Part shown: positions 3,861-24,839 of the stretch, one piece after another
Layout of the letters: each line of letters opens with the position of its first letter
How positions within the stretch are numbered: the stretch's first letter is position 1
NCBI GenBank assembly: GCA_020630335.1
Contig: JAHDBN010000002.1
Coordinates: 1 to 64,000, forward strand
Origin: Bacteriovoracaceae bacterium
Lineage (GTDB): Bacteria > Bdellovibrionota > Bacteriovoracia > Bacteriovoracales > Bacteriovoracaceae
Direction of reading: 5' to 3'
DNA length: 64,000 nt
The notes under the pieces: generated by a model
What the model was told of the DNA's origin: nothing
The model's database searches: none
What the model saw: only the letters and a program-made list of their open reading frames with translations
Position numbers and translations under genes: made by a program

Positions 3861-5288
3861 ATGAAATCAAAACATAAAAAGAAAAGACTCATTTATGATG
3901 TTCTTTATGGATTTATAAGATTAACTCCTATTGAGTGGGAAATTATTCATACACCTTTTTATCAGCGACTAAAATGGATTAAGCAATTAGGCTTTTCTTT
4001 TTATACTTATCCAGGCGCAGAACATTCAAGATTTGGGCATTCTCTTGGAGTCATGAATAACGCTGATTGTATTCTCAGACAAATAGGAGAAGGAGCAGAC
4101 GAAGAGGAACTCTACTCTGGGGTTTTGAAAACGAAAGAAGCCAAGGAGCATCAAAGTATAAGAATAGCTGCGTTACTTCATGATATTGGAACTTTTTGTT
4201 TTTCTCATACGATAGAGAATGCTTATATAAAATATTCAGAATCAAGTAATCAAAAAAAGAGAGAACAAAGAGATGATCATGAACACCTAGGTTCTTTTAT
4301 TATTAAAAGAACAGATACCAGAGGCGGAATTACTAGAATTTTAAAAGAAAATAATCTGGATGTTCAAAAAATTTCAGATTTAGTCAAAGGCATTGATTCG
4401 AATATTTTAGCAAATCAAGTTCTTCACTCTGAAGTTGATTGTGACCGAATGGATTATCTTTTAAGAGATGCTCATTATACAGGCCTTCAGTATGGAAAAT
4501 ATGATAGGGCCTATTTGCTAAACCATTTTCAAGTCAGAGAAGTTTCAGGAAATAAGATTTTAACAATTCATGAAAAAGCTATTAATTGTGTTCAAGATTT
4601 CTTGATATCTAGGTTTGCTTGGTATTCACAAGTTGTACGATCTGGACGAGGTGCCAAGTTTGATGCTCTGGCAGAGGAAGTTGCTTTTTATATGCTAAAA
4701 AATGGTTTGATTTATAAGTATGGAGAGTTATTAGAACTTATTGAACACGAACCTTCCAAGTTTTTTACCTATAATGATTCGTATTTTATGAATGTCTTGC
4801 AAGAGCATTACCATAAAGGAACCTTTGCAAAAGAACCGAGAATTTTGGATATGGTAGAATCATTACTTTTCTCAAGAAGTCCTATTCGGATTAAGCATGA
4901 AGCATTTAAACAAAGAATTTTAGATCAAAATAATATGAACGAAAATCAAAAAATCATGAAGAGGGCGAAGGATAAATTTCAAGAAATTTATGATTATGTC
5001 AAAAAACACGGAGATGAGACGTGTTGGATGATAGAAGATTTTCCTAAAAAAGATATCTACTTAGCAAAATCTCACAAGAGATTGGTGAAAGACACCTCTC
5101 AAACAAATCTTTTACTAGAAAGAGATCCAGTAAAAATTTGCTATTCTAGTGGAGAAGTCTATTTATTATCAAATCTAGACAATAACCTTGTAAGTAAGCT
5201 TCAAAATAGCGTAAATTTCATGCCTCACGTATTTTGCAATGAAAAAGCATATGCCTGCCTGAAAGACTCAGGTTTAATTGAAAGGTGA
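3861..5288 (+). CDS. HD-superfamily phosphohydrolase (dNTPase/SAMHD1-like)
   Basis: A 475-residue protein with GGAGG just before the ATG. The signature of the deoxynucleotide triphosphohydrolase-like HD group is clear: YPGAEHSRFGHSLGV (~51-65), ALLHDIGTFCFSHTIE (~103-118) with the HD pair, and EVDCDRMDYLLRDAHYTG (~192-209). The metal-binding His and Asp residues are all present. Family members hydrolyse dNTPs or related phosphate esters, and the exact substrate cannot be told from sequence. The C-terminal ~200 residues are less conserved. It stands alone, followed after 57 bp by ftsE. A role in nucleotide pool control is inference. Confidence 0.8.
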   Translation: MKSKHKKKRLIYDVLYGFIRLTPIEWEIIHTPFYQRLKWIKQLGFSFYTYPGAEHSRFGHSLGVMNNADCILRQIGEGADEEELYSGVLKTKEAKEHQSIRIAALLHDIGTFCFSHTIENAYIKYSESSNQKKREQRDDHEHLGSFIIKRTDTRGGITRILKENNLDVQKISDLVKGIDSNILANQVLHSEVDCDRMDYLLRDAHYTGLQYGKYDRAYLLNHFQVREVSGNKILTIHEKAINCVQDFLISRFAWYSQVVRSGRGAKFDALAEEVAFYMLKNGLIYKYGELLELIEHEPSKFFTYNDSYFMNVLQEHYHKGTFAKEPRILDMVESLLFSRSPIRIKHEAFKQRILDQNNMNENQKIMKRAKDKFQEIYDYVKKHGDETCWMIEDFPKKDIYLAKSHKRLVKDTSQTNLLLERDPVKICYSSGEVYLLSNLDNNLVSKLQNSVNFMPHVFCNEKAYACLKDSGLIER

Positions 5289-20497: not shown

Positions 20498-21091
20498 TTA
20501 ATAATACTTGATATCTGAATCAATACACTCAGAGTCACTCTTAGAAACACCATGTGCATCTCCACCTATATAGCCAATTGTAATATGAGGATAATACTTT
20601 AGAGGCGAGCTAATAAGATGTCCCTTAGGTCGATTAACTGCTTTTTTATAAATCTTTGATCTAATTGATTGAGCAGGAGTTCTCACAACAAGAAAATAAA
20701 CTATATTTCCATTTTTTTTGCTTACCTGCCTAGCAAGACAGTGAACTTTAAATGGAAGAGTAAGAACTTCTTTCGAATAATCATCGATCATTTCTTCTGT
20801 TGGATAAGTTAAATCAAGTCCAATTCTACCCATATTGGCAAAACGAGTTCTTCCTTCAGGTGGAGTGATGATTGTAATATGAGCTTCTTTTCGATCTTCT
20901 AGTTTATGCTGATACTTCTCTAGGATGTGTTTTTTGATTTTATTGACCGCTAAATAATTTAGAGGTTGAATTAATGTACCATCTTTTGAGAATTGGTGAT
21001 CATAATCTTTTTCGGGGATGTAGATTTTTTCAGAAATCCAAACTTGAGAGTAAGAGAAAAATGATAGGAGCAAAGTAAGTAAATAAATCAT
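20498..21091 (-). CDS. Secreted 2H-phosphoesterase-like protein
   Basis: A 197-residue protein with a signal peptide (about 1-16, SFFSYSQ). Two HxTx-like motifs, AHITIITPPEG (~69-79) and YPHITIGYIGGDAHG (~166-180), are about 97 residues apart, with a buried-strand context typical of the 2H superfamily (2'-5' RNA ligase/cyclic phosphodiesterase-like). The position usually Thr is Ile in the HITI pattern, so activity is not assured. The family acts on 2'-5' bonds or 2',3'-cyclic phosphates; a secreted member might process RNA fragments in the periplasm or in prey. No Shine-Dalgarno; TATACT lies 8 nt before the start (minus strand). Confidence 0.6.
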   Translation of the reverse strand: MIYLLTLLLSFFSYSQVWISEKIYIPEKDYDHQFSKDGTLIQPLNYLAVNKIKKHILEKYQHKLEDRKEAHITIITPPEGRTRFANMGRIGLDLTYPTEEMIDDYSKEVLTLPFKVHCLARQVSKKNGNIVYFLVVRTPAQSIRSKIYKKAVNRPKGHLISSPLKYYPHITIGYIGGDAHGVSKSDSECIDSDIKYY

Positions 21092-21324
21092 GAATTCTCA
21101 GTATAATGAGTCTGATTTTGAATCAAGACCTTTCAGGTTTTCTCAATTGTAAATTTTCAAAAACTTCCTTAATTTAAGAATGTAGTCGTTTAACAGCAAT
21201 GAGTTCGATTTGATCCTACTTAGCGATATTTACTTATTTATCAAAATTAGCTAAAGTCATCAAACATTCAAATAACTCGCTCACGACGATTAGCGTCATG
21301 GGCCAACAGACCAGGAGTGCACTT

Positions 21325-21933
21325 ATGATTTATGAAACAGCATTTGTTTTAAAGCCGTCTTGTACTGATGATGTAGCAGGAAAAATGAAGGAATTCATTT
21401 CAAAGCTTATCACAGATAACAAAGGCGAAGTTCTCGTTAATGATGATTGGGGACTAAGAAATTTTGCTCAAGCTACTAGCAAGGGTGAAACGAAAGGAAA
21501 GTTTTACTACCTAATGTTTTCAGGTGATGGAACTTTTAACACTGAAATTGATAGAAAAATGAAACTATCAGAAGATGTTTTAAAGTGGATTACTGTTAGT
21601 CTTGGACCTGAATCGAAAAAAGATTCAATCATTAAGACTTATCAGAATCCAAACAATGAAGTGACTGATAAAGATAGAATCAAGTCTGAAAAAGAAAAGA
21701 AAATCTCTTCTAAGACTAGATCTTGTTGGTTCTCAGCAAACAAAACTCAACCTGATTGGAAAGATCCTTCAAGCTATAAGTGGCTTGTTAATGAATTTGG
21801 AAAAATTACTCCAGGTAGAGCTACAGGACTTAGACCTCGTTACCAAACTATGGCAACAACAGCTATTAAGAGAGCGAGAACGATGGGAATGATTTCTTAT
21901 CAGTCTAATAAAGTTAGCACGAGAGTTCAGTAA
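21325..21933 (+). CDS. Fused ribosomal protein bS6-bS18
   Basis: A 202-residue protein from ATG 21325, chosen because AGGAG lies 7 nt upstream; an in-frame ATG at 21298 has no such site. Residues 1-~100 are bS6 (MIYETAFVLKPS, WGLRNFAQATS, KGKFYYLMFSG). A charged linker (~105-128) leads without any stop into bS18 (~129-195), recognised by SCWFSANKTQPDW, FGKITPGRATGLRPRYQ and TAIKRARTMGMISY. S6 and S18 normally come from separate rpsF and rpsR genes and bind each other 1:1 in the 30S platform. The next genes are yybS-like, rplI and dnaB, the usual surroundings of rpsF-rpsR, so nothing else fills the rpsR slot. Confidence 0.9.
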   Translation: MIYETAFVLKPSCTDDVAGKMKEFISKLITDNKGEVLVNDDWGLRNFAQATSKGETKGKFYYLMFSGDGTFNTEIDRKMKLSEDVLKWITVSLGPESKKDSIIKTYQNPNNEVTDKDRIKSEKEKKISSKTRSCWFSANKTQPDWKDPSSYKWLVNEFGKITPGRATGLRPRYQTMATTAIKRARTMGMISYQSNKVSTRVQ

Positions 21934-21947
21934 AAGGTTTATAGATA

Positions 21948-22904
21948 GTGAAAGAAAATAATCCAAAACCAACGAAGTTATTTGTCTTAGGAATGATGTT
22001 TTTCATTTTTAATTTTGCACAAGTGACTGCTATTTTTGCTCCAGTTCCGCTGGTGGTAGCAGCCTTAGCTTTTGATCGTAAAAAATCTTACTCACTTGGC
22101 TTAATGGTTTTAGGAGCTCTTTATGTATGCTCAGCTTATCTTTTTGGAAACTTGAGTCCTTTCGCAACAGGTGTGTATACATTTTTTGTGGGAATAATGG
22201 TCTCAGAATGTTTTCTTAGAGGGTTTCATCCGATGAAGTCTATCTTGATTTTAGGTATGCTCATTTTAACAACGGCGGGAAGTCTGAGTGGTTTGGCAGT
22301 TAGCCAAGGTTTTTCTTTTAGTAAATATATAGAAGAATCCTTAGTAACAACTAAGACTATGTTAGAGAGTAATAAAGAATTCAAAAAAGAAGATATGGAG
22401 CGCTTAAATCTAGTCGAGTTTTTAGGAAATCCTAAAGAGTCGGCGAGTTTAGTTTTAAAGAAACTACCATTATACTTTATTGGATTTGTTTTCTTATCAT
22501 TATGGGGAATCTTTTATTTTATTCTAAGATCTTATCATTTTTTCTCAAGACCAGAGTATTTAAAGTACTCAGAAGAGGTTTTGAAAAACTTTAAAATGTC
22601 TGATTATTTCATCTTTCCTGTAGCTTTATGTTTAGGGTTACTTCTTTATGGAGAGAAGCTTGGAGCCAATTATCCGTATATTGGCGAAGTAGGTTTATTT
22701 CTCATGGGAATATTCTACTTTATGCAAGGCTTTGGAATAGCAATGACGTATTTTGATAACATGGGAATTAAAGGAATTTTTAGAACAATTATTTTAATGG
22801 TTTTATTGATAATTGCTCCTTTATTTCTTTGTTCATTAGGATTATTTGATACGTGGTTTGATTTTAGAAAAAAGAATAAAAAAAATATTAGAAAATCGAG
22901 TTAA
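21948..22904 (+). CDS. YybS-like (DUF2232) membrane protein
   Basis: A 318-residue protein starting with GTG, 14 bp after the S6-S18 gene. There are about eight hydrophobic segments grouped at ~10-130 and ~170-305, with a soluble loop (~120-165). Sequence similarity is limited, but length, topology and its location between the S6/S18 gene and rplI match the YybS/DUF2232 family found in that operon in other bacteria. Function is unknown. It lies 18 bp before rplI. Confidence 0.65.
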   Translation: MKENNPKPTKLFVLGMMFFIFNFAQVTAIFAPVPLVVAALAFDRKKSYSLGLMVLGALYVCSAYLFGNLSPFATGVYTFFVGIMVSECFLRGFHPMKSILILGMLILTTAGSLSGLAVSQGFSFSKYIEESLVTTKTMLESNKEFKKEDMERLNLVEFLGNPKESASLVLKKLPLYFIGFVFLSLWGIFYFILRSYHFFSRPEYLKYSEEVLKNFKMSDYFIFPVALCLGLLLYGEKLGANYPYIGEVGLFLMGIFYFMQGFGIAMTYFDNMGIKGIFRTIILMVLLIIAPLFLCSLGLFDTWFDFRKKNKKNIRKSS

Positions 22905-22922: not shown

Positions 22923-23495
22923 ATGAAAGTAATATTAACTGAAAAAGTTAAAAGTTTAGGAAGCGTTGGTGAAATTCACAACGTTAGTGCTGGTTATGCT
23001 AGAAACTTTTTATTTCCTCAAAAGCTTGCAATGCTTGCTGATGAAGGGAATACAAAAGCTTTAGAAGACCAGAAGAAAGCTTTATCTAAAAAAATGGATG
23101 AAGAAAAAAGCGGAGCAACAGCTTGCAAAGCAAAGCTTGATGGAAAAACTATTACAGTAGAAAAGAAAGTTGGTGGAAGTGGGCGTCTTTTTGGAACAGT
23201 TACTGCAAATGAAGTAGCTCTTCTTTTAAATAAAGAAGGAATTGAAGTAGAAAAGAGACAGATTTTAATTGAAAATCCAATTAAGCAATTAGGAACTTTT
23301 GAAATCAAAGCTAAACTTTTTCAAGATGTTGAAGCAACTTTTAATGTAAAAGTAGAAAAAGATGCTAAGCAGATCGAAGAAGATAAGAAAAAAGCAGAAA
23401 TGAAAGCAAAAGCTCCTAAAGTAGAGAAAAAAGTTGAAGCGACTGAAGAAGAAGCTAATGCTGAGGAAACTGCTACTGAAGAAGCTGCTGAGTAA
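22923..23495 (+). CDS. rplI: Ribosomal protein bL9 with acidic tail
   Basis: A 190-residue protein with TAGGAG before the ATG. The N-terminal L9 domain is clear ([19 protein letters not shown] and [14 protein letters not shown]), as is the connecting helix and the C-terminal domain (~70-148, [16 protein letters not shown]). Typical L9 ends near 150 residues; here ~40 extra residues, rich in Glu, Ala and Lys, form a low-complexity tail of unknown role. Part of the S6-S18/yybS-like/rplI/dnaB operon. Confidence 0.95.
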
Positions 23496-23498
23496 TTT

Positions 23499-24839
23499 AT
23501 GATTAAGGAGATGCCTCACGACATTCTCTCAGAGAAATCCTTGTTGGGGTGTCTTCTTATCGATTCAAAATGCTATGACATAATATCTGAAGCGAATCTA
23601 GATGCGGATGATTTTTATGATCCCAGACACCAACATATCTTTAGGGCCATTACTGAACTTCACACTGACTCGGCTGCTATTGATTATATTTCTGTTTGCT
23701 CTAAGTTAAGTGACTTTGGAAAGCTAGAAGCTATAGGTGGGAAGAGTTTTGTCTTAGAGTTGATACAAGATCAAGCAACCATCGTTCATGTCGAGCATTA
23801 CGCTAGAACGGTTAAAGATAAATCTCTTGTTAGGGGAATTATTAGAACTGCATCTAGAGTTATTGAAACAGGATCAAAGTTTACAGGGAATGTTTCTGAT
23901 TATATTTCTGAGGTTGAATCAAGTTTTTTTGAACTTACCTCTGAAACGAGAACTGGTGGATTAAGGCCCTTAAAAACATTTTTAAAAGAAAATTTAAAAG
24001 AGCTTGAGAATGGTAATAGAAATGCTGGAGAAATCAGTGGATTACCTACAGGATTCATAGGCTTAGATAAAAAACTTTTAGGAATGCAACCTGGTCAATT
24101 AATTGTTCTCGCAGCAAGGCCCGGAGTAGGTAAGACTGCACTTGGTTTAACGGTTGGAATCAACTCAGTAAAAGCTACAGGTTTACCAACAGTTATCTTT
24201 TCTTTGGAGATGTTAGGCCCAGAGCTTTCTAGAAGATTATTATCTTCAGAAGCTAGCGTTGACTCTGATAGATTACGGACAAAAAACTTTCTTGATACAG
24301 ATTTAAAAAACTTAAGCCAAGCAATGAGTACTATTGGAAAATTGCCTTTTTATATTAATGATGCAGCTGATATCAATTTATTAGATATGAAAAGTCAGTG
24401 TCGAAAAATCAAACTAGAACAAGGCCTTGGGTTAATCATTATTGACTACCTTCAATTAATGCAAGGGCATAGCAAGACTCAAAGTCGAGAACAGCAAATC
24501 TCTGAAATCTCCAGAGGCTTAAAAAACTTAGCCAAAGAATTAGAATGTCCCATTATAGCAATGTCTCAGCTAAATAGAGCTGTCGAATCAAGGCCAGATA
24601 AAAGGCCATTAATTTCAGATCTAAGAGAATCAGGTTCTATTGAGCAAGATGCAGATATTGTCATGATGATTTATAGAGATGAGATGTATAATCCTGACTC
24701 AAAAGATAAGGGAATAGCAGAGGTTATTATTGCTAAAAACAGATCTGGAGAGCGAGGAACAGTAAGACTTGCTTGGATAGGTTCTCAAACGAAGTTTGCT
24801 CCTTTAGAATATCATCAAGACGAACAAACAGCTCATTAA
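23499..24839 (+). CDS. dnaB: Replicative DNA helicase DnaB
   Basis: A 446-residue protein. The N-terminal domain (~1-115) begins with PHDILSEKSLLGCLLID; the RecA-like motor (~165-440) has Walker A AARPGVGKTALG (~204-215), LIIIDYLQLM (~312-321) and the conserved DLRESGSIEQDADIV. It unwinds DNA at the fork as a hexamer. I keep ATG 23499, 3 bp after rplI; a second ATG at 23511 is directly abutted by AAGGAG with no spacing, so it is less likely. The pabB-like gene starts inside its stop codon (TAATG). Confidence 0.95.
   Translation: MIKEMPHDILSEKSLLGCLLIDSKCYDIISEANLDADDFYDPRHQHIFRAITELHTDSAAIDYISVCSKLSDFGKLEAIGGKSFVLELIQDQATIVHVEHYARTVKDKSLVRGIIRTASRVIETGSKFTGNVSDYISEVESSFFELTSETRTGGLRPLKTFLKENLKELENGNRNAGEISGLPTGFIGLDKKLLGMQPGQLIVLAARPGVGKTALGLTVGINSVKATGLPTVIFSLEMLGPELSRRLLSSEASVDSDRLRTKNFLDTDLKNLSQAMSTIGKLPFYINDAADINLLDMKSQCRKIKLEQGLGLIIIDYLQLMQGHSKTQSREQQISEISRGLKNLAKELECPIIAMSQLNRAVESRPDKRPLISDLRESGSIEQDADIVMMIYRDEMYNPDSKDKGIAEVIIAKNRSGERGTVRLAWIGSQTKFAPLEYHQDEQTAH

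Follow-up and report, generated by a model that had tools for sequence, protein, structure and literature searches.

In 84 genomes of the class Bacteriovoracia (phylum Bdellovibrionota), the ribosomal proteins S6 and S18, which are normally adjoining but separate proteins, are encoded in a single reading frame. We think it likely that this chain had one origin, that it serves the 30S subunit as one piece, and that it represses its own synthesis via its own leader RNA. A search of the openly accessible literature turned up no published S6-S18 fusion. We describe the fusion in a window from a Bacteriovoracaceae bacterium (the whole stretch of 64,000 nucleotides that was analysed; assembly GCA_020630335.1, contig JAHDBN010000002.1), where the relevant features are the following.

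21271..21327, + strand: leader RNA, detected by model R1 at 51.2 bits and supported by covariation and fold
21275-21278 with 21315-21318, + strand: outer helix of the leader
21279-21287 with 21295-21303, + strand: inner hairpin of the leader
21311-21312, + strand: bulge of the leader, with the conserved CC
21313..21317, + strand: Shine-Dalgarno sequence AGGAG, some of it base-paired in the outer leader helix (from the sequence)
21325..21933, + strand: bS6-bS18 fusion gene, 202 codons plus stop (translation, Pfam, NCBIfam)
21325..21615, + strand: bS6 domain, residues 1 to about 97 (PF01250; best Foldseek matches are bS6 chains)
21616..21717, + strand: bS6 tail motif KTYQNP, then the variable charged linker (clade-wide lengths; model)
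21718..21930, + strand: bS18 domain, residues 132-202, zinc ligands lost (PF01084)
21948..22904, + strand: DUF2232 membrane protein, next in the operon (PF09991, 61 bits)
22923..23495, + strand: rplI, encoding bL9 (PF03948 and PF01281)
23499..24839, + strand: dnaB (open reading frame and conserved order; named from its sequence, without a family search)

Translation of 21325-21933 on the forward strand gives 202 amino acids without an internal stop. Pfam places Ribosomal_S6 (PF01250) at residues 3-91 (67.1 bits against a cut-off of 27) and Ribosomal_S18 (PF01084) at residues 140-189 (52.1 bits against a cut-off of 21). The NCBIfam equivalog models for both proteins also exceed their cut-offs in this one chain (TIGR00166 for S6, 46.3 vs 42.9; TIGR00165 for S18, 49.8 vs 38.75). 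We favour the ATG at 21325 as the start codon over the ATG at 21298 (the start in the list of open reading frames), since AGGAG precedes the former, separated from it by seven bases.

These searches bear out the first-pass annotation, which had read the frame as a complete bS6 domain, a linker of about 24 residues and a complete bS18 domain. The linker length stands for the variable charged part (about 20-25 residues), but not for the distance between the domains, which in the window protein is about 48 residues by Pfam and about 34 by clade-wide HMMs; part of this region is a conserved bS6 tail (KxYxxP). Over the 84 genomes, the inter-domain region spans 31-47 amino acids (median 40) and contains a stop in none, and the homologues are 197-214 amino acids long. 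Acidic residues make up about 22% of the linker region clade-wide, and basic residues about 20%. The annotation was also right that the fusion enforces stoichiometry, since one reading frame means that S6 and S18 are synthesised 1:1.

An AlphaFold model of the fusion (56 sequences; pLDDT 85, pTM 0.81) shows a bS6 fold, linker helices at residues 96-105 and 115-131, and the bS18 helices. The linker is modelled with lower confidence, with ten-residue blocks of 62-83. With Foldseek, the first half aligns to bS6 of many ribosomes, mostly with TM-scores of 0.77-0.89 by target length.

The fusion is followed on the same strand by DUF2232 (termed yybS-like in the annotation), rplI and dnaB, with gaps of 14, 18 and 3 bases. 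This is the order that had been claimed, and it is constant across the fused loci. The whole window assembly (98.35% complete) contains one S6 match and one S18 match, both in the fusion frame; a separate rpsR, whose absence from its usual place the annotation had noted, was sought across this genome without success. A sigma-70 promoter scan upstream of the fusion gave no match. The product of the divergent gene upstream (20498-21091, reverse strand) resembles 2H phosphoesterases (2H-SAK, 42 bits). As a separate observation, the window bL9 has a long charged C-terminal tail (23358-23495). Such tails have a median of about 45 amino acids class-wide and reach 112, some being clipped by locus ends, in genomes with and without the fusion; two outgroups have a bL9 tail of only 3 amino acids.

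To see how widespread the fusion is, as the annotation had suggested, we read the loci of related genomes directly, and found both domains in a single frame in the 84 Bacteriovoracia genomes, three of which (G104, G043 and G046) are assembled into about 1, 2 and 5 contigs, respectively. An S18 match is present in 118 of 129 genomes of the class, always one per genome, and in all 73 of those with at least 90% completeness and at most 5% contamination. Two loci (G110 and G120) are clipped by contig ends; on a different G120 contig, the S6 part continues without a change of frame through the linker and into the start of S18. Among the S18 matches listed for other families of the phylum, all lie in short frames of 74-155 codons and are therefore unfused. 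One genome of another family (G326) has two S18 matches, on separate contigs.

Separate genes also occur among relatives. The outgroups G288 and G312 have the same operon with rpsF and rpsR as separate genes, and five members of the family (G059, G060, G061, G065 and G020) likewise have both. In these separate-gene relatives, rpsF and rpsR are closely spaced, and the separate rpsR has an acidic/polar N-terminal extension that ends in DKDRRMFSRKKSCWF or similar, and so resembles how the fusion linker ends on its C-terminal side. A further locus (L039, in G071) is fusion-like and lacks the zinc ligands, with an in-frame TAA in the linker (about 4298-4302, reverse strand) and no start codon between this TAA and the S18 domain. 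The stop may be a draft-genome error or a real break.

The annotation had also proposed that the fusion may replace leader-based autoregulation, which our results do not support. In E. coli, rpsF is repressed by the S6:S18 complex, and by neither protein alone (PMC4647458). The S6:S18 operator, a CCG bulge between a stem and a hairpin, lies ahead of rpsF (PMC10931766); it is described in Matelska 2013, Fu 2014 and Babina 2015, as cited in PMC4647458. Residues K60 and R63 of E. coli S18 contact the two conserved cytosines of the operator (PMC4647458), and their equivalents (K182 and R185 in the window fusion) are kept in 84/84 fused proteins. The Rfam model of this leader (RF02893, RpsF_leader) had zero matches among 369 genomes of the phylum. 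It matched E. coli at 110 bits, the one match among 14 control genomes, and is hence a narrow model.

After RpsF_leader gave no match, a covariance model (R1) was built from Bacteriovoracia leaders. It detects held-out leaders at nearly every fused locus and, in a whole-genome scan, finds the leader in 101 of 126 genomes of the class, nearly always once. The aligned regions ahead of the start codon share the motif ACUCGCUC...GGGC...UCCAGGAG, and a CC stands immediately before the Shine-Dalgarno sequence in 76 of the 84 fused loci (two of the other eight are clipped by contig ends). Single-sequence folding is weak (z of -1.29 for 75 nt and -1.90 for 106 nt), and the case for the leader hence rests on covariation; the 106-nt fold contains both leader helices. 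Across the 25 leaders on which R1 is based, 83.5% of cells pair in the 13-pair structure, and changes on both sides of a pair occur in 48 cells, compared with 19 after shuffling and no more than 17 when the controls were slid. Double changes affect six of the nine inner-hairpin pairs. The outer helix is imperfect, with pair 6-55 forming in 14 and pair 8-53 in 17 of the 25 sequences.

This leader shares with the rpsF leader of RF02893 its position, a hairpin, a bulge with a conserved CC, and an outer helix that contains the Shine-Dalgarno sequence. It differs in that the bulge is mostly CCA rather than CCG, and the outer helix CUC:GAG rather than CCUU:AAGG. As RF02893 is unmatched, assignment to the operator rests on architecture and on intermediates, and we regard the Bacteriovoracia leader as probably a divergent S6:S18 operator rather than an established member of that family. 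One intermediate is a leader before the separate rpsF of G065 (L038, 28.5 bits with R1), which indicates that the leader does not depend on the fusion and is probably older than it. A second copy of the leader in G074 (contig C102, L117) scores 26.4 bits and has the canonical CCG bulge and CCUU:AAGG outer helix. The L117 gene (238-835, reverse strand) is a separate, divergent rpsF that accompanies the fusion in a draft genome, and may be contamination or a true second S6. The second leader copy of G077 (contig C76; L116, 8300-10800) is a relic that precedes truncated first codons of the fusion, the two together lying at about 509-700; the next open reading frame in L116 (1116-1625) looks ORF6N-domain-like by eye.

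The missing Rfam match could also mean that the leader has nothing to do with S6:S18 binding, and that it serves some other regulator or merely tunes initiation. We find this improbable, as the hairpin, the CC bulge and the helix covering the Shine-Dalgarno sequence match the description of the S6:S18 operator (PMC10931766), and R1 also detects the leaders of the separate rpsF genes in L038 and L117, the latter canonical.

We infer that the chain stays uncleaved, works whole in the ribosome and binds its own leader. One polypeptide would then provide the 30S platform with bS6 as well as bS18. We expect it to fold into an S6:S18 pair that needs no assembly from two chains, and to be taken up by the 30S subunit in the way known for the heterodimer elsewhere. 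Whenever it outnumbers 16S rRNA, the fusion would bind the leader of its own mRNA and stabilise the helix covering the Shine-Dalgarno sequence, blocking translation. Since a single-chain repressor needs no pairing, such feedback would act on one concentration and not two. On balance, we lean towards the uncleaved fusion being normal in the 30S subunit across most members of the class, as an autorepressor on a retained operator, with the loss of the bS18 zinc site being coincident.

The fusion might instead be a precursor from which cleavage of the linker releases S6 and S18 as separate proteins, like the eukaryotic fusions of ubiquitin and ribosomal proteins. A variable, charged linker of lower model confidence could admit proteases, and the length of the linker region varies (31-47 amino acids). 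However, no conserved cleavage motif is seen in the 56 aligned proteins: between P109 in the bS6 tail and C134 in bS18, there are zero invariant residues, which disfavours a sequence-specific cut and leaves a general protease as a possible agent. The linker is also predicted by AlphaFold to be partly helical. We therefore consider cleavage unlikely. It is far less plausible still that free bS18 is additionally made by internal initiation in the linker. While an in-frame ATG is found in 36 of the 84 linkers, six of them with an upstream Shine-Dalgarno-like match, the window linker has no ATG, and a start codon combined with a Shine-Dalgarno-like match occurs in only 8/84 linkers, vs 76/84 at the real start. 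Finally, a stop codon lost to sequencing error, a caveat raised by the annotation, or to an assembly artefact can practically be dismissed: draft and metagenome assemblies are numerous in the set, but the uninterrupted frame recurs in 84 genomes, G104, G043 and G046 among them, with a stop-free linker region of 31-47 codons.

In the tree built from DUF2232, L9 and DnaB, the earliest branch is that of G059-G061, and the placement of G065, G020 and G071 near the base is poorly resolved. Forcing all fused rows and G071 into one clade is not rejected (p-AU 0.287). The simplest reading of these sequences is one fusion event, by losing the short gap between the two genes. Most likely, this single origin lies near the base of Bacteriovoracia, and loss of the gap between neighbouring rpsF and rpsR would have made the bS6 tail run directly into the extension at the bS18 N-terminus. 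G065 or G020 may have split the genes again later. The CxxC...CxxH pattern of the zinc site is found in bS18 of 5/5 separate-gene relatives (L035, L036, L037, L038 and L040) and in 0/84 fused bS18. Given the poor resolution at the base of the tree and the possibility of a later split, this association between fusion and zinc loss involves few independent events.

An uncut chain would also affect modification. RimI modifies the N-terminus of bS18. RimK modifies the C-terminus of bS6 (PMC10931766). The uncut fusion has neither a free bS6 C-terminus nor a free bS18 N-terminus, and hence neither end modification would be possible on it. The presence of RimK is of no use as a correlate of a free bS6 C-terminus: RimK-family genes over the cut-off are present in 84 of 126 genomes of the class, many of them fused, and the family has other substrates; the window genome has no RimK-family gene over the cut-off.

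If fixed in most of a class, a fusion that joins two core ribosomal proteins would rank as a rare alteration of ribosomal protein composition, and it is a clear clade marker inside Bacteriovoracia. It would also serve as a natural experiment on whether there are situations in which S6 and S18 must act apart, be it in assembly, modification or regulation, and would make a known two-protein repressor available as one chain. Compared with the bS6:bS18 heterodimer, the fusion shares both complete domains and the RNA-contact residues equivalent to K60 and R63, but joins them covalently through the 31-47 residue region. The zinc site recalls ribosomal proteins that exist in a zinc-containing (C+) and a zinc-free (C-) form, since the separate-gene bS18 has CxxC...CxxH and the fused one has lost these ligands, although here the loss accompanies the fusion and not a zinc-regulated second copy. 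Ubiquitin-S27a and ubiquitin-L40 of eukaryotes are likewise ribosomal proteins made within a fusion. However, their partner is non-ribosomal and is cleaved off, while the two halves of the S6-S18 fusion are neighbours in the ribosome.
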